Of a stretch of DNA of 32,126 bases, positions 19,539 through 29,524 are shown one piece after another. Each line of letters opens with the position of its first letter. The stretch's first letter is position 1. The notes beneath the pieces are model-generated. The model worked only from the letters and a program-made list of their open reading frames with translations, had not been told where the DNA came from and made no database searches. A program made the position numbers and the translations under genes. This DNA is from Bacteroidota bacterium (lineage in GTDB: Bacteria > Bacteroidota > Bacteroidia > Chitinophagales > Saprospiraceae), in contig JAAAOU010000481.1 of NCBI GenBank assembly GCA_009908745.1, forward strand, positions 1-32,126, in the 5' to 3' direction.

Positions 19539-19799
19539 ATGCTTCGCCATTTGCTATCCCGTGGACTCAGCAAACCGAAGATCAGGCGGTTATACGACTT
19601 CATCAACCACTACACGGGCTTAGAAAATATAGAGAATAAGCTTAAATTTGAAAGTGATGCCCAGAAAATCACTAAATCGAGACAAGCTATGGGACTGAAA
19701 GAAGCCATTCTGCAGGAAGTAAGGGAGCAGGGCATCGAGCAAGGCATCGTGAGCCTCACCCCAAAAACTGGACAAGGGTTTAAGGTGATAAATTCATAA
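19539..19799 (+). pseudogene. C-terminal remnant of an Rpn-family recombination-promoting nuclease/putative transposase
   Basis: RHLLSRGLSKPKIRRLYDFINHYTGLENIENKLKFESDAQKITKSRQAMGLKEAILQEVREQGIEQG matches the C-terminal pattern of Rpn/PD-(D/E)XK transposases; catalytic N-terminal part absent. Confidence 0.6.
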
Positions 19800-20150
19800 A
19801 TTTCATCACCAAAATTAAGACCAGCTATTGCAAGAAGAGGCGTACAAAAACATAAAGACACAGCACAATATTACGGGATTAAACATGACCGCACTACTTT
19901 ATAGAATTTAGTATTGTAAAACCATATTACGCACGTTAAGCGGCGCAAAAATTCGATTGCTCGAACAAAATCTGCTTTGTTAAACACAGTTCAAGTAGTA
20001 AGCTCCTCTGCCTACCTGATAGCTATGACAAGTCTATAGCTAAAAGAGTTGGGTGTAAACCAAGTTGTTACAATCGGTTCGTAGACTCTTTAAGGCTGAA
20101 AAGTGTGACTCCGCTGGAGTCGGTAATATGGTTTGAACCCATGGTGACTA

Positions 20151-20397: not shown

Positions 20398-21966
20398 TTA
20401 CTCACTTTCTAACTTGTACTCAGATTTTAGAGCATCATACAACTGCAGTCGATTCCTAGGAGAAGGGGCGTTATAGTCAACAATGGTACCATTTATTAAT
20501 ATCAAATAACGTGGGATCTTTGACACTTTTTTTGAGTACTGATTCTTGAACAACAAAGCCTTCAGCTCTTCACCAGCTAAAATATGATAACCTCCAAGGT
20601 GGTATTTATCAATAATACTCACCCATTCGTTATATTTACGATCAGGAGAATCAACAGATATGTATAACCTGTCATACCCCATAGAGCTTAGCATACTATC
20701 TGTAGATGCATTAGAACTAAAATCTTCCAAGCAGCTTAAGCACCAAGTTGCCCAAACATCAATGAAATATTTCCCCTCTCGAAGATTTACCCCCTCTTTA
20801 GAAAATGAGAAATCTGTTATACTCCCACTATCATCAATGATAATAGGTGCCCATTTAGCGTAATATTCATCTGGGTATGGTTGAGTAGAGGAGGTATTCG
20901 CCGCTTCAATCAACTTTTGAGTGTTCCGAAACCGTTCATCGTGAATAACATTTAAATACTTGCTTCCAGGGTATTCCCTTTTAAATAGTTGAAATAAAGC
21001 TTTTCGGTCCCTGTCAAATTCGTTTCCTATGAGTGATGAAAATTCAAAATAAAGCTGATATGCGATCAAAAATTCACGAAGTTCATCATCTGGCTCCAAT
21101 AACAAATGCGCGTGTTTCTTTGAGATATGAAGTGCTTTATATCCTTCATTCACAATAGTGTCAGGCAGTTGCGCATACTCTTTTTTATTATTAGTTATCA
21201 TCCGCTTATATTTGAGCTTTGCAGAGCGAAATAGAGCAAAGCTTGTGTTTACTAGAGCGTGTTCTTCTGCAAGATCACAATAGCAATTGATTTTCTTCCC
21301 AGTACGCAATCGTTTTTCTTGATCGAAACCGGATCCAAACCTACCCCATCGGACATTGAAAACATCTGATAGCAGCCTTGAGCAAAGCGTTGATTTCAAG
21401 TGATTTGCAACTATATTGGCATATGAGGAATCAATTCTACCTAGATTTAGAAGATCGTTGTATGGTTTTACAATAGATTCAATTTTTCTGATAACGGTAT
21501 CCGCAACACCTTCCACATCTGGATTGATGTCATAAAACCAGTTCATATAATCCGTGTACTTGGGGAAATGGTCTTTAAAGTCAAGGAATTCTTGATGTCC
21601 GGCAGCGTTTGCTCCGTAGATCTCCATTTTTAAATCAGGTCCTTTACCTTGATAAGTAAAAACAAGACTAACACTGTCATTAGGCAGCATAAAAAGAACC
21701 AGATGCTCTTGTAGTTTCTGTACACTGCGCTTTTGATATGATATGCGTACCATTACAGCGTCAGTAATGTTACTTGGAAGTACTATTTCTGATTTCCCAT
21801 ACTCAAGTTTTGACTTATGTTGAACTTCAAACAAGCCATAACTTTCAGCATAAGAATACACGACTGTATCAAAAGGGTACTCTTCAGGGAAAGATACATT
21901 CACAATTGTCCGTGAAAGAGATAGGGTTGGACACAATAACAATAAAAATACACAGACCGATAGCAT
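20398..21966 (-). CDS. TlpA-like thiol:disulfide oxidoreductase with large N-terminal domain
   Basis: Start reassigned to ATG at 21966 (MLSVCVFLLLLCPTLSLSRT signal-like); C-terminal thioredoxin fold KYFIDVWATWCLSCLEDF (CxxC) and KVSKIPRYLI (cis-Pro). Confidence 0.8.
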   Translation of the reverse strand: MLSVCVFLLLLCPTLSLSRTIVNVSFPEEYPFDTVVYSYAESYGLFEVQHKSKLEYGKSEIVLPSNITDAVMVRISYQKRSVQKLQEHLVLFMLPNDSVSLVFTYQGKGPDLKMEIYGANAAGHQEFLDFKDHFPKYTDYMNWFYDINPDVEGVADTVIRKIESIVKPYNDLLNLGRIDSSYANIVANHLKSTLCSRLLSDVFNVRWGRFGSGFDQEKRLRTGKKINCYCDLAEEHALVNTSFALFRSAKLKYKRMITNNKKEYAQLPDTIVNEGYKALHISKKHAHLLLEPDDELREFLIAYQLYFEFSSLIGNEFDRDRKALFQLFKREYPGSKYLNVIHDERFRNTQKLIEAANTSSTQPYPDEYYAKWAPIIIDDSGSITDFSFSKEGVNLREGKYFIDVWATWCLSCLEDFSSNASTDSMLSSMGYDRLYISVDSPDRKYNEWVSIIDKYHLGGYHILAGEELKALLFKNQYSKKVSKIPRYLILINGTIVDYNAPSPRNRLQLYDALKSEYKLESE

Positions 21967-22365
21967 ACGATTTAGCCCCTTATGCTTGTTGCTTTGCCTT
22001 AATGATAAATAGCAGCTATTTCTTATTATCTCTTGTGCTGTCTTGGTCATGTGAATTAGATTTAATTGTAATTAATCTTTTTTAGAATCAACATCTATGA
22101 TCTGACACCCTAAGGTTTGTGAATCCTAAGTTATCAGACTATAAAAAGTAGGGTGTGTAATCTATTGTGTTCGCCTCCTAATGCTTTAGGACCTCAGGAT
22201 TAGGGACGTAAACCTAATGCTTTTCATCTGATCTACGAATTTTTACTCCCCATAAACACGTCTGGCTGATTTCTTGTCAAGCTACACTCCTTACATCTAA
22301 AAAAGTGTCTTAGTGGCGTTGAAATTCTTTTCTCCTTCTAAGCAAGTTGTCTGGAGAAAACTGTA

Positions 22366-22396
22366 GACCGTATTAATAAAAGGTCATAATACGGTC
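22366..22396. repeat. Perfect 10-bp inverted repeat gaccgtatta/taatacggtc
   Basis: Direct reading; 11-nt loop. Confidence 0.7.
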
Positions 22397-22420
22397 CTGA
22401 ATCAAAGGCAACATTGATTT

Positions 22421-22612
22421 TAGGCTGACAACTTTGGGTTTGTGAAAGTCATGACGCTGCTATTTTTTCTGCTATCGAGTCAAAAAACGTACGCATAGCC
22501 TACACGAAGCGTGGGGAAAAAGGGATCCCACAGTGAAGTCAGCGAGGCTTTTTGGCGAAGAGTGGCGGAGAAATAGCAAGTCATGATTCACAAATCTTGG
22601 GTTATCAGCCTA
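22421..22612. repeat. Palindromic MITE-like element with ~50-bp imperfect terminal inverted repeats
   Basis: Left TAGGCTGACAACTTTGGGTTTGTGAAAGTCATGACGCTGCTATTTTTTCTGC; right (reverse complement) TAGGCTGATAACCCAAGATTTGTGAATCATGACTTGCTATTTCTCCGCC. Confidence 0.65.
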
Positions 22613-22699
22613 CATCTTAGGTATGTTTGTCTAATACGAAACTTAGGTTTCTGATGTTTTCAATATCGAAGTCGATTGCACTAAGAGAGAAGGAAAGCA

Positions 22700-22731
22700 T
22701 TGTCTTTGTAGTATTTTCACCACAAAGACAA
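22700..22731 (-). terminator. Candidate terminator/attenuator hairpin downstream of the peptide gene
   Basis: ttgtctttgt-(12 nt)-acaaagacaa perfect 10-bp stem ~66 nt past the peptide stop; minus-strand 3' flank is pyrimidine-rich but not a clean U-tract. Confidence 0.45.
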
Positions 22732-22797
22732 AAACTCTCCCAAACCTTTCAAAACTTTTGGATACCTCGACTATGAAACAAACAGCTCAAAGTCTAT

Positions 22798-23109
22798 CTA
22801 ATGAGCTAATTGTTGATTTAGATATCCAGTACTAGGATTTTCTAGGGCTTGAGCAGCACATCGGTCCGTGTAAGAACAGGCACCAGTTCCGTCGTTTGCC
22901 CCAGGTGAAGTTTCACAGTGACTTGCTAAATCCTCATGTACTGGGATATCATTGCCATTCCCGCCAGAAGTCCCAGGATAGTACCAACATCCTGATACTC
23001 CTCCGGTACAACTACAATGAAGGTTCGCCCCTCCTTTCACAAACTTCATTTTTTCAATGGAGATGATGTGCTCATTAGTAATACCAAGCTTTTTGATTAA
23101 CTCTTCCAT
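22798..23109 (-). CDS. Double-glycine leader peptide precursor with six-Cys core (candidate bacteriocin or signalling peptide)
   Basis: Leader MEELIKKLGITNEHIISIEKMKFVKGG followed by a 76-aa Gly/Cys-rich core with 6 Cys; 17 nt downstream of the VKOR fusion gene. Confidence 0.8.
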   Translation of the reverse strand: MEELIKKLGITNEHIISIEKMKFVKGGANLHCSCTGGVSGCWYYPGTSGGNGNDIPVHEDLASHCETSPGANDGTGACSYTDRCAAQALENPSTGYLNQQLAH

Positions 23110-23126: not shown

Positions 23127-24746
23127 TTAAGAAAATCTGATGAAATATGTTAAGTCTTTGAGGTTATATTGAGACGGCAACTCATGTCCGTTATAATATA
23201 TCATAGGAGTACCCTCTATGCCTTCTTTTTTGGCCCAGATTCTAGTTTGTTCAATATGTTCAAAACCACTATCTTTTTGATTAGCGGTATTATTCAAATT
23301 CGACCGTTGCCGTTTAGCTTGAGTAGAATTACTATTAAACCAATGATGCAGATATTGTATAGCTTCCTCCGAACCTTTAGCTAAGTATATATCAAGCATT
23401 TGCATTGATGCATGCACGCTATTTTTGTCCGTAGCGAAGAATACTAATTGTATTTTAATGTTTGCATTAGATTTTAATATATCGATCAACTGCCTACCAA
23501 GCTCGGAACAATATTCACAAAAGGGGTTATACACTACTAAAATCCACCTTTTGCTCTCTTTATTCCCTAATATCATTCCCACATCTTCTATATCCTGTAG
23601 ATTTTGTATTATTTTTGCAGAACGCAATAGAGACCAAAATACGATAGAATTGTACTTTATTTCTTTATACAGGTTTCTGTAGTTTTCAGACTCAGCTTTT
23701 TTAGTTGTTGCCAGTAAAATTGCTTTAACAAACGAAAAGGCAGCAACCATAAATAAAATAAAAATCAGTAAATACTTTAATATTGACATTTTAGTCAAAA
23801 GAACGATGCTTGGTTCAAAAGTTAAAGCCACGGTAAATTCCAATGCAAGAATGACCTGTATTATAATACAAAGAGGGCACCATGCTTTTGCTATTTTCCA
23901 TTGGTAAACTATTGAGAATATAGTATAAGGAAACACAAGTATACTGATCAATGAAGCAGTCTGTATGAGTCGTATGTCAACCATTATAGCTAAAAGAATA
24001 CAAATCCCTCCACCTGCAAAATACGAAAAGCCAATTTCACTCCAGGTAGCTAGATTTGCAAATTTAGATCCTTTTGAATTCAATACTTTATCACAATTAG
24101 TTTTTCTATTAAAATTACATATCCTTTTAACGAATTTATTTGGTAGAACACCTACTTGCTGTTTCAGGAGTTGCCAAGAAACCATTATCCCTAGCAACTT
24201 AAATATCAGCATTAAGCTAAATTGAGAAGAGAGTATTAAATTAACACTACCTGTGCTGAGTATGTACCATATCAATACTGTAGTTAACACTACAAAAAAC
24301 ATTACCATTATACCTTTGACTATACTCTTAAGTGATTTACGAGTTGATATATTTTGTTCAACTGTGTTGCTTATTAAAATAGTGATTAAATCTTTATGGT
24401 CTAAGAAATTATTGATGTGTTCTTTTTCATGTTGACCTTCGACACTTAAGTAGCCGTTTTCTTCTGCAGTAATTAATTTGAATTGATTTTTATTTGATAT
24501 ATACATTATGAAGGGTGGATCTAAACTTTTAAGTTTATCATTATCTAACGTAACTGCTACATTATCTACTCCATAAAAGTTAAGTGTATCGTGAACTCCA
24601 AGCAACGAATTAGCATTTGGATGTTCTTGTAAAAGTTTAAAAACCTCTTTCTTTTCAGCCTGCACACCTAAAACTTTCAAAGTTCTCCAAACGACTTCGA
24701 TAATTCTATCAATATCTGTTTCGCTCCTAAGTGACAAAGAAAGCAT
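23127..24746 (-). CDS. C39-like / vitamin K epoxide reductase / thioredoxin-fold fusion membrane protein
   Basis: N-term HPNANSLLGVHDTLNFYGVDNVAV...DPPFIMYISNKNQFKLIT (C39-like without catalytic Cys/His); VKOR TNCDKVLNSKGSKFANLATWSEIGFSYFAGG and AWCPLCI; Trx-like VVYNPFCEYCSELG and GTPMIYYNG. Confidence 0.88.
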   Translation of the reverse strand: MLSLSLRSETDIDRIIEVVWRTLKVLGVQAEKKEVFKLLQEHPNANSLLGVHDTLNFYGVDNVAVTLDNDKLKSLDPPFIMYISNKNQFKLITAEENGYLSVEGQHEKEHINNFLDHKDLITILISNTVEQNISTRKSLKSIVKGIMVMFFVVLTTVLIWYILSTGSVNLILSSQFSLMLIFKLLGIMVSWQLLKQQVGVLPNKFVKRICNFNRKTNCDKVLNSKGSKFANLATWSEIGFSYFAGGGICILLAIMVDIRLIQTASLISILVFPYTIFSIVYQWKIAKAWCPLCIIIQVILALEFTVALTFEPSIVLLTKMSILKYLLIFILFMVAAFSFVKAILLATTKKAESENYRNLYKEIKYNSIVFWSLLRSAKIIQNLQDIEDVGMILGNKESKRWILVVYNPFCEYCSELGRQLIDILKSNANIKIQLVFFATDKNSVHASMQMLDIYLAKGSEEAIQYLHHWFNSNSTQAKRQRSNLNNTANQKDSGFEHIEQTRIWAKKEGIEGTPMIYYNGHELPSQYNLKDLTYFIRFS

Positions 24747-25079: not shown

Positions 25080-25412
25080 TCATACTGTAAAACTACGCCC
25101 ATCCACTGCAGCATACGTGCAGTGGAAAAAATAATTCAAATTTTTTCCTCCTTTTACTCTTTTCTCACCGGAACGATTGATCAAAGGCGTGAAGTAAAAC
25201 TCCGTTTCTTGCGTGTAGCAATAAGAACGACGCTTATGGTCGTAAGAGATCGAAGCCCCCTGATAGCGAAGGTCATTGAGTAGCTGGTAAACGGTCCTTG
25301 GGCAGACATTCAGGCGTTCCGACAACTCTTCGGCACTGCCCGTTCCTTTTCTTTTTATCAAATGGTGTAGCCGGTCTAATTTTTGGAGACGCTCTCGAAA
25401 AGTCATTTTCAT
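25080..25412 (-). CDS. Small HTH (DeoR/HTH_11-like) regulator with VKGG-containing C-terminal tail
   Basis: FRERLQKLDRLHHLIKRKGTGSAEELSERLNVCPRTVYQLLNDLRYQGASISYDHKRRSYCY winged-HTH pattern; tail GEKRVKGGKNLNYFFHCTYAAVDGRSFTV. Confidence 0.8.
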   Translation of the reverse strand: MKMTFRERLQKLDRLHHLIKRKGTGSAEELSERLNVCPRTVYQLLNDLRYQGASISYDHKRRSYCYTQETEFYFTPLINRSGEKRVKGGKNLNYFFHCTYAAVDGRSFTV

Positions 25413-25444: not shown

Positions 25445-26746
25445 TCAATTCTTCACCAAATCGACCAAACGAGCAAATACTCGCTCTAATATTCTACGGT
25501 CTTCTGTGATAAGGACTGCTTGACCTGGCATCCGGGCTGTTATTGGCAGGATATTGCCATAAGTTGTGCGAAGCGAATCAGGTAATTGGGCTTTCACGCT
25601 GTAAACCCAACTGCCATCTTCTTGACGTTGAGGGGTTTCGTCTATGGCAGTAACTCGGGCGTTAAGCTGACCGAATTCTGTCTCTGGATAGGCATCAAGA
25701 CTGATTTTCACAGGTGCGCCTATCTTTATCTTCCCAATACCACCAGCGGGCACTAGCAGGTGGGCGATAGACTGTCCCCGTTTATGCTCGGTTGGCACCA
25801 CTGTACCTAAGAGCTCGCCAGCCTGTATAGTCGAATGAGGCTGCACAGGGCGGAGTAATTCCAGTTGTCCGGCAATCGGACTACGCAGTAAGTACTGAGC
25901 CTGCCACTCCTGCAAACTTCCAATGAGTTGTTTTTTTGCCTGCTCGATGGCAAGTTGCAGAGCGTTCTGGCTTTGCAAGTATTCATCTTTCAACGTAGCG
26001 AGCTGCGTTTTGAGCTGCTGAATCTGCGCCTCGTTTTGCAGCATCGTCACCTCCAAGTTTTTCAGTTGGCGCTCATACTGCAGTACTTGCATCTTTTGCT
26101 GCTCCCACTCTGCAGTACTCCGTACCCCCTCTTGGTGCAAAGCATCGGTCCGGTTCATTTCACTTTGAACTAGAGATTGCTCTTCGACGAAAGTTACTTT
26201 TTGGGCGCTGTAAGCATTAGCTAGCTTTTTCAAGGACTTTATTTCCTGCTCTAGAGCTTGTTGCCTTTCTTTAAAAATCGTTCGGTTTTGAAAATTTGAC
26301 CAATCTTTGGACGCTTGTACATAATTAGCCCAAGCGGATTGTATATTGCCTAGTTCTAAAGGTTCATTGAACAAAGGAAGTTGACCACTATCGTCTGTTA
26401 ACCCCTCAAGCAGCCGGTCGATATCCCTCCAATCCGCTGCACTTTCTAATAGTATAATGGGGTCATTAATAGACACTTTCGTCCTATCTCTATATAATAA
26501 GGTGTCAACCCGCCCAGAGATCAAAGACCGCAATTCGTGAGGAGGGCGGGCTTGCTCAAGTACTACAGTAGCCGCTAGCTCATCAGGGTAGCGGATTAAC
26601 CAACTGAGTAAAAGTCCTATTGCCATGACAAAAGCGATAACGGTAATACCTGAGTGCATTATCCAGCCAGGAGGGTGTCCTAGCATTTCCTGCAATTCAT
26701 CTTGGGGGGCAGCAGCCCTGACATTCAGTCCATTTTCAGAAGGCAT
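25445..26746 (-). CDS. HlyD family periplasmic adaptor subunit
   Basis: One N-terminal TM, long coiled-coil hairpin, lipoyl-like AGQLELLRPVQPHSTIQAGELLGTVVP. Confidence 0.88.
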   Translation of the reverse strand: MPSENGLNVRAAAPQDELQEMLGHPPGWIMHSGITVIAFVMAIGLLLSWLIRYPDELAATVVLEQARPPHELRSLISGRVDTLLYRDRTKVSINDPIILLESAADWRDIDRLLEGLTDDSGQLPLFNEPLELGNIQSAWANYVQASKDWSNFQNRTIFKERQQALEQEIKSLKKLANAYSAQKVTFVEEQSLVQSEMNRTDALHQEGVRSTAEWEQQKMQVLQYERQLKNLEVTMLQNEAQIQQLKTQLATLKDEYLQSQNALQLAIEQAKKQLIGSLQEWQAQYLLRSPIAGQLELLRPVQPHSTIQAGELLGTVVPTEHKRGQSIAHLLVPAGGIGKIKIGAPVKISLDAYPETEFGQLNARVTAIDETPQRQEDGSWVYSVKAQLPDSLRTTYGNILPITARMPGQAVLITEDRRILERVFARLVDLVKN

Positions 26747-26768: not shown

Positions 26769-28967
26769 TTAATTACCGAGTTCTAATTGGTTTTTCACAA
26801 GCGTGTAATAGGCCCCACTTTTTCGGACCAAGCTATCGTGGCAGCCCTCTTCTACGATTCGCCCATCATCAATGACCACGATTTTATCAGCATGCCGTAC
26901 TGTGCTCAATCGGTGGGCAACAACGACTACAGTACGACCTTCAAAAAACTGATTAAGTTTCTCCATAATCTCCCGTTCGTTATTGGCATCCAAAGCATTA
27001 GTCGCTTCGTCAAAGAATAAAAACTCCGGGTCTTTGTAGACCGACCTCGCTATCAGCAGCCGCTGCCGTTGCCCTTGACTGATGCCGTTACCCTTCGCAC
27101 CTATCATTGTATTGTACCCCAGAGGTAGCTGCTCTACAAAGTCCTGTATATTGGCGACATGCACGGCATGTTGCAGTTTTTCAATATGGTTGCCACCGAA
27201 ATAGCCCTTTTCGCTCTCCGCAATATTATTGGCAATTTTATCGGAGAAGATATAGCCGTCCTGCATGACCACTCCGCACTGCTGTCGCCATACGTTTGCA
27301 CGGATACGCTCTAAATTGGCGGGACCAATGCTGATGCTTCCTTTTTCCGGAGGGTAAAACCCCAATAGTAATTTGAGTAAGGTAGTCTTGCCGCTTCCGC
27401 TTACCCCTACTAATGCTGTTACCTTCCCGCGGGGGATGGTCAGATTAATGTCTTCTAGTGTCCAATCGTGAAGCTTATTGTAGCGAAAGTGGACATTTTT
27501 GAGTACAATATCCCCCTGTGGGATGAGGCTAGACTTATTGTGATCTTCAGCGTCCTCGGTAGGCTGGTTTTGTATCTCACCTAATCTTTCCAAACTGATC
27601 CTCGCATCTTGGGCGCTGCGCACAAACCCCACCAATTGAGCAAGTGGGGCATTAAGCTGTCCTAAAATATACTGGATTGCCAACATCATACCTAATGTGA
27701 TCTGACCATCAATGACCGCTTTAGCCGCAATAAAGGTGATGAGAATGTCTTTCAGCTGGCTAATGAATGAAGCCCCTCCATCTTGAAATTGGGTGATGAC
27801 CAATGACTTGATCTGCACTTTAAAAAGCTTAGCCTGTATTTCGGCCCACCGCCATCGTCGCTTGGCATGGCTACCTTGCAGTTTTATCTCCTGCATTCCC
27901 TGTACAAGCTCTATCAAAGTATCTTGATTATCTGACATCTGCTGGAATGCACGGTAATCAATCTCTCGCCTTTTTTTGAGAAAAAAAGTGATCCACAGTA
28001 TATAAAGTACAGCTGCTATTGCAAAAGCTGTGAATATGGTGATGGAGTAATACAGCAGCACAAGGCTAAAAACAATGAGATTGAAAACAGAAAATATAAC
28101 AGAAAGCGCTGACTGGGTTAGAAAAGACTCAATACGTCTATGATCGCCAATTCGTTGCAATAAATCACCCGTCATTTTCGTATCGAAAAAACCGATAGGA
28201 AGCCGCATTAAACGGCTAAGAAAGTCATTGATTAGACTGATGTTGATACGGGTGCCTATATGCAGCAATATCCAGTTTTGGATGAAACGCACTGCTGTTT
28301 GACTAAGGAAAAGTGTTAAGTGGCCAATCAGCAGCAAATAAATAAAGCCAATATTCTGATTCTGAATACCGATGTCAACAACTGACTGGGTCAAAAACGG
28401 AAAAACAAGAGAGAAAAGGGAGCCTAATGCCAGTCCAATCACTAGTTGCACAAGGAGCCTACGGTGAGGTTTCAAATACTGTAGCAGATAAGCAAAACCT
28501 AAAGGTTTATCTTTTTGCTCTTCTTCTTGATAAAATTGACCTCCTGGAGATAGCAGCAAACATATCCCTTTTTGGCCATCCGCTAACCAACCTGCTTTGA
28601 ATTCATTCACTGGGAGTTTAAACTTTCCTGCGCCTGGGTCTGCTACCCATACATATTTCTTATTCGCCTTATAGACTACAATAAAATGGTTCTGGTTCCA
28701 ATGGGCAATAACTGGCATGGGAGCAACTAGTAGCGAGGGGGATCCATTGGGCGCAGAAAAGGGAATTTTGACGGCCATCGGTTGTAGACCAATCCGGTCG
28801 GCAGCTTCGCTGATGCCCTTTAAGCTAACCCCTTCCCGGTCGATATAAGATATATTCCTTAGATGTTGCAGCGAATAAGACCTGCCGTGGTATTTAGCAA
28901 TCATTCGGAGGCAACTTGGACCACAATCCATAGCATCTAATTGCTTGTAAAACGGAAAGCGCTTCAT
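26769..28967 (-). CDS. Peptidase-containing ABC transporter (C39 peptidase + TM + ATPase)
   Basis: Start reassigned to ATG at 28967; QLDAMDCGPSCLRMIAKYHG (Cys), HWNQNHFIVVY (His), WVADPG (Asp); Walker A GVSGSGKTTLL, signature SQGQRQRLLIAR, Walker B LFFDEATNALD. Confidence 0.95.
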   Translation of the reverse strand: MKRFPFYKQLDAMDCGPSCLRMIAKYHGRSYSLQHLRNISYIDREGVSLKGISEAADRIGLQPMAVKIPFSAPNGSPSLLVAPMPVIAHWNQNHFIVVYKANKKYVWVADPGAGKFKLPVNEFKAGWLADGQKGICLLLSPGGQFYQEEEQKDKPLGFAYLLQYLKPHRRLLVQLVIGLALGSLFSLVFPFLTQSVVDIGIQNQNIGFIYLLLIGHLTLFLSQTAVRFIQNWILLHIGTRINISLINDFLSRLMRLPIGFFDTKMTGDLLQRIGDHRRIESFLTQSALSVIFSVFNLIVFSLVLLYYSITIFTAFAIAAVLYILWITFFLKKRREIDYRAFQQMSDNQDTLIELVQGMQEIKLQGSHAKRRWRWAEIQAKLFKVQIKSLVITQFQDGGASFISQLKDILITFIAAKAVIDGQITLGMMLAIQYILGQLNAPLAQLVGFVRSAQDARISLERLGEIQNQPTEDAEDHNKSSLIPQGDIVLKNVHFRYNKLHDWTLEDINLTIPRGKVTALVGVSGSGKTTLLKLLLGFYPPEKGSISIGPANLERIRANVWRQQCGVVMQDGYIFSDKIANNIAESEKGYFGGNHIEKLQHAVHVANIQDFVEQLPLGYNTMIGAKGNGISQGQRQRLLIARSVYKDPEFLFFDEATNALDANNEREIMEKLNQFFEGRTVVVVAHRLSTVRHADKIVVIDDGRIVEEGCHDSLVRKSGAYYTLVKNQLELGN

Positions 28968-29524
28968 ACAGTTGCGTAGCTTTTCAGGCTTTAAACCACA
29001 CCTCAATTGCGGCTAAAGCGGGGGTTAATAATAGCATGGCATTAAGTGGCTAGGCGAATATATACCGACGACGAAGTAGTTTGGGACCAACCATGACTTC
29101 GTGCCTGCCCGACATGCAAAGGCAGGCGGGTCGGCATATACTCGTGCGTCGGGTTTGTGCCTTACGCCCAAACCTCTCCGTTCCGAGTATATCTACCTTG
29201 CCACTTCCTTGGTTTTATATACGTTTGTGCAAAAGAGCGTCAACGCTCAGCGTTACAGCGTCATGAGTTCGATATAACAAGTCAGGGCGCGCTGTATTTT
29301 AAATAGACATAAATATACTGACAATAGGGGCACAATGCAAGTTTTATAGCTGTTTTTTTTTAAAAGCACTCCTATAAATTTGAGCAATCACTAGATGACA
29401 GTGATAACACCTGCTCAAAACCAATAAACACCAACAAAGTTTTTTACAACAATCACAGGCGGCAAACGGACGCCAACCAAATTGTCGCATCAGCCCCTCT
29501 TTTTCGCTGGAAGTGTGACACCTA

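Follow-up and report, generated by a model that had tools for sequence, protein, structure and literature searches.

A 32,126-nt stretch of Saprospiraceae DNA (the window; contig JAAAOU010000481.1) contains a short ORF for a peptide with a GG leader and six cysteines. The question raised by this locus is what such a peptide is for, and how it would be cut, exported and folded. On our reading, the product of the ORF is a secreted peptide with disulfide bonds, for which the locus brings a secretion and oxidative-folding line of its own; the product is most likely bacteriocin-like, and we put the probability of this reading at about 0.6. The folding machinery, which the sequence-only reading of this DNA left out, is the more informative part of the locus.

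The precursor gene and its operon

The precursor is the fifth of six genes on one strand, in the order C39-peptidase ABC exporter, HlyD adaptor, small HTH protein, VKOR-thioredoxin fusion, precursor and TlpA-like oxidoreductase. The features of the locus are as follows.

26769..29006, minus strand: C39-peptidase ABC exporter (PCAT) carrying the Cys (MDCG), His (NHF) and Asp (ADPG) motifs; putative leader cleavage and export
25445..26746, minus strand: HlyD-family membrane-fusion protein
25080..25412, minus strand: small HTH protein, probable regulator, with homologues in other clusters of the same type
23127..24746, minus strand: VKOR-thioredoxin fusion, 539 aa, proposed oxidase of the peptide
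22798..23109, minus strand: precursor peptide gene, 103 aa, with ATG at 23109 and stop at 22798
23109..23029, minus strand: GG leader of the precursor, 27 aa
23028..22801, minus strand: six-Cys core of the precursor, 76 aa
22700..22731, minus strand: 14-bp hairpin, 66 nt past the precursor stop
20398..22050, minus strand: TlpA/ResA-like thiol-disulfide oxidoreductase, 550 aa, proposed peptide-specific disulfide editor

Re-reading of the DNA reproduced exactly the ORF, the leader (27 aa, MEELIKKLGITNEHIISIEKMKFVKGG), the core (76 aa, ANLHCSCTGGVSGCWYYPGTSGGNGNDIPVHEDLASHCETSPGANDGTGACSYTDRCAAQALENPSTGYLNQQLAH) and the cysteine positions (32, 34, 41, 65, 78 and 84, or CxC-x6-C-x23-C-x12-C-x5-C) given in the sequence-only reading. 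The leader carries hydrophobic residues (V24, M21 and I16) at -4, -7 and -12, the leader positions bound by a C39 peptidase (PMC6363468), and the start codon lies 17 nt past the stop codon of the same-strand VKOR-thioredoxin gene. Because of this proximity, the C39-type leader residues and the VKOR homologues that elsewhere precede GG-leader Cys-rich ORFs, the ORF is more than a chance occurrence. It is a real gene, and its description as a GG-leader precursor is supported. A spurious ORF would fit the absence of close homologues from 399 genomes of the order and 398 of the family (overlapping samples) and from contigs of GTDB species, but this explanation is hardly credible given the gene position, the leader, and the homologous cores and TlpA clade described below. 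Searches of Pfam, NCBIfam and PDB gave no match to the core, which agrees with the sequence-only reading, where its spacing was not recognised from any named bacteriocin class. The AlphaFold model of the precursor (pLDDT 42.5, two sequences) is uninformative on disulfide geometry.

The TlpA gene lies 748 nt downstream of the precursor in the window, compared with usually about 25-170 nt elsewhere, and the two genes may therefore not be co-transcribed. The hairpin is a possible partial terminator before the TlpA gene, as called by a pattern scan only, with terminator-like sites overall not above shuffled expectation. The gap itself (22050-22798) contains imperfect repeats at 22102-22123 and 22425-22446, plus an inverted one at 22578-22608. 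No Rfam RNA was found in the operon. The GC content is 36-38% over 20-26 kb and 45-57% in the remainder of the window; searches did not find the precursor in the congeneric genomes sampled, or the VKOR gene in the one congener tested. The low GC and these negative searches are consistent with a horizontally acquired island. Short ORFs at 19610-19861, at the edge of the low-GC stretch, resemble, as judged by eye, a fragment of an Rpn/PD-(D/E)XK transposase-type nuclease.

Homologues of the small HTH protein lie at L179:11502-11843, L091:3574-3906, L053:10463-10801, L098:3843-4175, L182:7354-7686, L071:11063-11404 and L069:4500-4811. The tail of these proteins resembles the GG leaders of the precursors, for example MPKEEMRKINGG, GQVLTREEMAAIG and EKRVKGGK, and a leader profile matches those of L179, L091 and L053 with per-sequence E-values of 6e-5 to 2.5e-3; the HTH protein of the window scores only 0.26. 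From this resemblance, the HTH protein may possibly be a regulator that senses C39 domains through leader mimicry.

A proposed oxidase fused to a C39-like domain

In the 539-aa fusion an N-terminal C39-like domain without the catalytic Cys is followed by a VKOR membrane domain and a C-terminal thioredoxin domain. The redox cysteines of the VKOR domain (C210, C218, C290 and C293) and of the thioredoxin domain (C410 and C413) are all invariant in 11 sequences. The first ~130 residues align with exporter C39 domains at an hhalign probability of 98.9 (E 2e-17), and Pfam C39 matches 10 of 11 fusion members; the catalytic DCG motif is found in none of 101 fusion N-termini. On these alignments we take the N-terminus to be a dead C39 domain joined to an oxidase. 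In type I exporters, HlyB among them, C39-like domains without catalytic activity serve to recruit substrate (PMC6363468). The HlyB C39-like domain (CLD) has in common with the window domain a C39 fold without the active Cys, but it sits on the ABC transporter, whereas here the dead domain is fused to a VKOR-thioredoxin oxidase.

Peptides encoded next to VKOR homologues

With the VKOR fusion as a marker, 114 loci were gathered, 101 of them non-redundant. A GG-leader Cys-rich ORF lies no more than 1.5 kb downstream of the VKOR homologue in at least 70 of these 101, a lower bound since gene order can differ, as in L071. Cysteine was not part of the pattern that selected the peptides, and seven hits to what were plainly other proteins were removed by eye. 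The number of cysteines, mostly 6 or 8, is even in 83 of 88 non-redundant VKOR-adjacent GG peptides (binomial p about 1e-19, only a guide since the peptides are related to each other), as expected if the cysteines are paired; this parity strengthens the earlier suggestion that the even count in the window core is compatible with three disulfides. The sequence-only reading also singled out the core as polar. Polar it is, and acidic (net charge -6), but polar cores are the rule across the whole VKOR-linked group and not a peculiarity of this one. Among these peptides the window core is the longest, with a Cys density below average, and the cores are extremely diverse between clusters. The literature searched on VKOR with bacteriocins or GG peptides in Bacteroidota, mostly papers outside subscription, does not describe this arrangement, so its novelty is unproven.

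A family of distant core homologues

A scan of the GTDB-species contigs with the precursor gave no matches. Weak single-sequence matches arose in genomes of the order and family (L002-L006 and L072-L088), and the best-looking of them, on inspection, were wrong-frame or unrelated coincidences; a CxC match in L002, for instance, spans a SusD/TlpA gene boundary in a different frame. Phylum-wide profile matches were likewise rejected, their similarity to other GG peptides being confined to the leader.

Comparison with the VKOR-adjacent peptides identified L132 (z = 6.5 against shuffles), which phmmer also ranks first among 7,794 ORFs (E 0.018). A profile of the two sequences then recovered five more members (L179, L180, L181, L182 and L183), for a total of six distant core homologues from profile searches, all in Chitinophagaceae. 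Every family member has six cysteines, and the alignment shows C32, C34, W42, Y44, C65, C78 and C84 (window numbering) to be invariant. The third cysteine, C41, is mobile: it forms a CxCxC in some members, stands beside the Trp in the window and lies elsewhere in others. Conservation of the cysteines among homologues, on which the sequence-only reading had made its interpretation depend, is thus borne out for the number of cysteines and for five of the six positions but not for C41. The exact spacing is therefore not the family signature, which is instead CxC...GxWxY...C...C...C.

A profile made from cores only, with the window protein left out, ranks L132, itself in the profile, first and the window peptide second among 7,794 ORFs, at E = 5e-4, a value that is not fully independent since five of the six profile sequences were recruited with a profile containing the window peptide; the next, unrelated ORF has E 0.25. 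By these sequence comparisons we assign the window peptide to a small unnamed CxC-GxWxY-C-C-C family of GG peptides with a one-clade TlpA-like partner.

In other Bacteroidota families, a phylum-wide search found GG peptides with CGCSCSGSVTGPWYC in L186, L187, L195 and L196. These four share the 12-residue motif CSC[ST]GxV[ST]GxWY with the window core (z 4-5.5) without the rest of it, through either kinship or convergence.

A TlpA-like partner that follows the core

The TlpA-like protein has a hydrophobic, signal-like N-terminus, a beta-rich and then helical N-terminal region and a C-terminal Trx domain (C437, C440); its AlphaFold model is moderate (pLDDT 58.5) and confident in the Trx domain. 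This domain is common to TlpA/ResA (PDB 2lja, 4nmu, 1st9) by sequence (1.5e-5) and by fold, but the window protein differs in having an extra N-terminal part of ~380 residues and in co-varying, as a whole protein, with the peptide core.

Among the VKOR loci, 67 of 94 Trx-motif ORFs of 250-720 aa lie shortly after a GG-Cys peptide. A tree of 61 such proteins places the seven TlpA partners of the family in a single clade (100/99; 0 of 500 shuffles), and since the partner genes had no part in defining the family, this clade is independent support for it. For five of these loci the VKOR proteins were placed as well, and they are scattered over five separate positions (five changes for five rows). 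Across 61 pairs, similarity between TlpA proteins rises modestly with similarity between cores (r 0.18, p 0.001), and the correlation with leader similarity is r 0.04 (p 0.19); in a subset of 38 loci, r is 0.24 for core and TlpA (p 0.0004), and VKOR too follows the core to a degree (r 0.18, p 0.018). As TlpA tracks the core and not the leader, its substrate is most likely the mature core, once the leader has been removed. The peptide and its TlpA seem to be inherited together and to be fitted, as a pair, into machinery that is generic. In L183 (9523-11082) the TlpA partner is split over two ORFs by a frameshift or sequencing error; it is intact in the other loci.

Comparison with known systems

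The GG-leader peptides of Bacteroidota in the NCBIfam entries TIGR04149 and NF047798 have a similar type of leader, but these entries model leaders, not the core. TIGR04149 is named for a radical-SAM association missing at the window locus, and the window leader scores 14.8 bits against its cut-off of 25 bits.

Class II microcins (e.g. microcin V) and class IIa pediocin-like bacteriocins also combine a GG leader, C39-ABC export and disulfides. The window peptide differs from both in having no recognised sequence similarity to them, and inspection of the sequence near the core N-terminus found no YGNGV motif of class IIa. We know of no VKOR or TlpA partner of the window kind in these classes.

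The bacteroidetocins (class IIf, Coyne et al. 2019) unite a GG-leader Cys peptide, a C39 exporter and a thiol oxidoreductase required for full toxin activity (PMC6671954), and they kill Bacteroidales through BamA (PMC8546649). They share with the window system their occurrence in Bacteroidota, the GG leader, the Cys core with a dedicated thiol oxidoreductase and the lack of an obvious immunity gene. The C39-peptidase ABC exporter is present in the window locus, as are two thiol oxidoreductases, neither of which need be an orthologue of the bacteroidetocin enzyme; no stand-alone gene for the five-TM protein of bacteroidetocin loci was identified in the window, where the VKOR domain is multi-TM. 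The leader, however, has 27 aa as against 15-16 aa, and the core is acidic with 76 aa and 6 Cys as against basic with 42 aa and 4 (at least 2) Cys. The window peptide is not filed under bacteroidetocins because its leader and core lengths differ from theirs. The window locus further adds HlyD, the VKOR-Trx fusion with its dead C39 domain and the large TlpA. By analogy, the window system would work like the bacteroidetocins though outside that family.

Proposed route to the mature peptide

As its domains and catalytic motifs suggest, the ABC exporter would recognise and cut the 27-aa GG leader with its C39 domain and, together with HlyD, carry the 76-aa core out of the cytoplasm. The VKOR-Trx protein, with its conserved redox cysteines, is predicted to oxidise the exported core in the periplasm and form its disulfides, oxidising equivalents passing from quinone through VKOR and Trx to the substrate. 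Its dead C39 domain may bind the GG leader as well, which would place the oxidase where export takes place. The co-inherited TlpA-like protein would reshuffle or reduce wrong disulfides of its cognate core. The mature product would be released and then most likely act as a bacteriocin-like antagonist of related bacteria, the weakest step of the route and one drawn from the analogy with bacteroidetocins. On that analogy the peptide is probably a weapon against other bacteria. More tentatively, and at somewhat less than even odds in our estimate, a generic leader-guided oxidase of dead C39, VKOR and Trx domains may serve many unrelated Cys-rich peptides, with the TlpA of each family an exchangeable cassette acting in folding or in redox immunity.

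Alternative readings

The role of the TlpA-like protein could be protective: as an immunity factor it would reduce, in the periplasm, the disulfides of peptide re-entering the producer. The Trx CxxC is present, no other immunity gene was recognised in the operon, and peptide and TlpA co-vary with each other, the export machinery being generic, as toxin-immunity pairs do. We nevertheless consider immunity unlikely, a foldase being the simpler reading for a redox enzyme beside a multi-Cys peptide; the bacteroidetocin thiol oxidoreductase, possibly no orthologue of the window TlpA, gave a sensitive strain no protection, and its deletion lowered toxin activity (PMC6671954). Unlikely, too, is a signalling or other non-antibacterial role for the peptide, with the HTH gene of the operon as part of the response. 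The long, polar, acidic core, in contrast to the slightly basic bacteroidetocins (+2 and +6; PMC6671954), would suit it, and the small HTH gene recurs in related clusters, but no sensor kinase or receptor is linked to the locus, and extreme core diversity with a peptide-TlpA pair moving between machineries is more typical of conflict systems.

The leader raises another possibility, that of a TIGR04149 radical-SAM RiPP, in which a radical SAM or lanthipeptide enzyme would act on the core in place of oxidation. The TIGR04149 leader profile matches the whole family of seven, with 2.4e-6 for the best member and 0.02, under the cut-off, for the window peptide. In the operon, however, no gene for a radical SAM enzyme, LanB/C/M or YcaO can be recognised, nor is a radical SAM gene visible among the larger ORFs of the window; the linked enzymes are two thiol-disulfide enzymes and Cys parity is strongly even. 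This reading is largely refuted for the window locus, and we regard it as very improbable. A secreted disulfide-bonded peptide, folded by its own enzymes, is the reading we prefer.

Implications

Bacteroidota beyond the well-studied gut species appear to secrete disulfide-rich peptides of great diversity, served by a dedicated folding line, and the gene of the VKOR fusion can be searched for as a marker of such peptides even though they themselves have few or no recognisable homologues. The pairing of peptide and TlpA raises the question of whether a thioredoxin-family protein can have a single small disulfide peptide as its specific partner, and whether it would serve folding or immunity. The arrangement also suggests a route to making multi-disulfide peptides in laboratory strains, alongside their own oxidase and editor.
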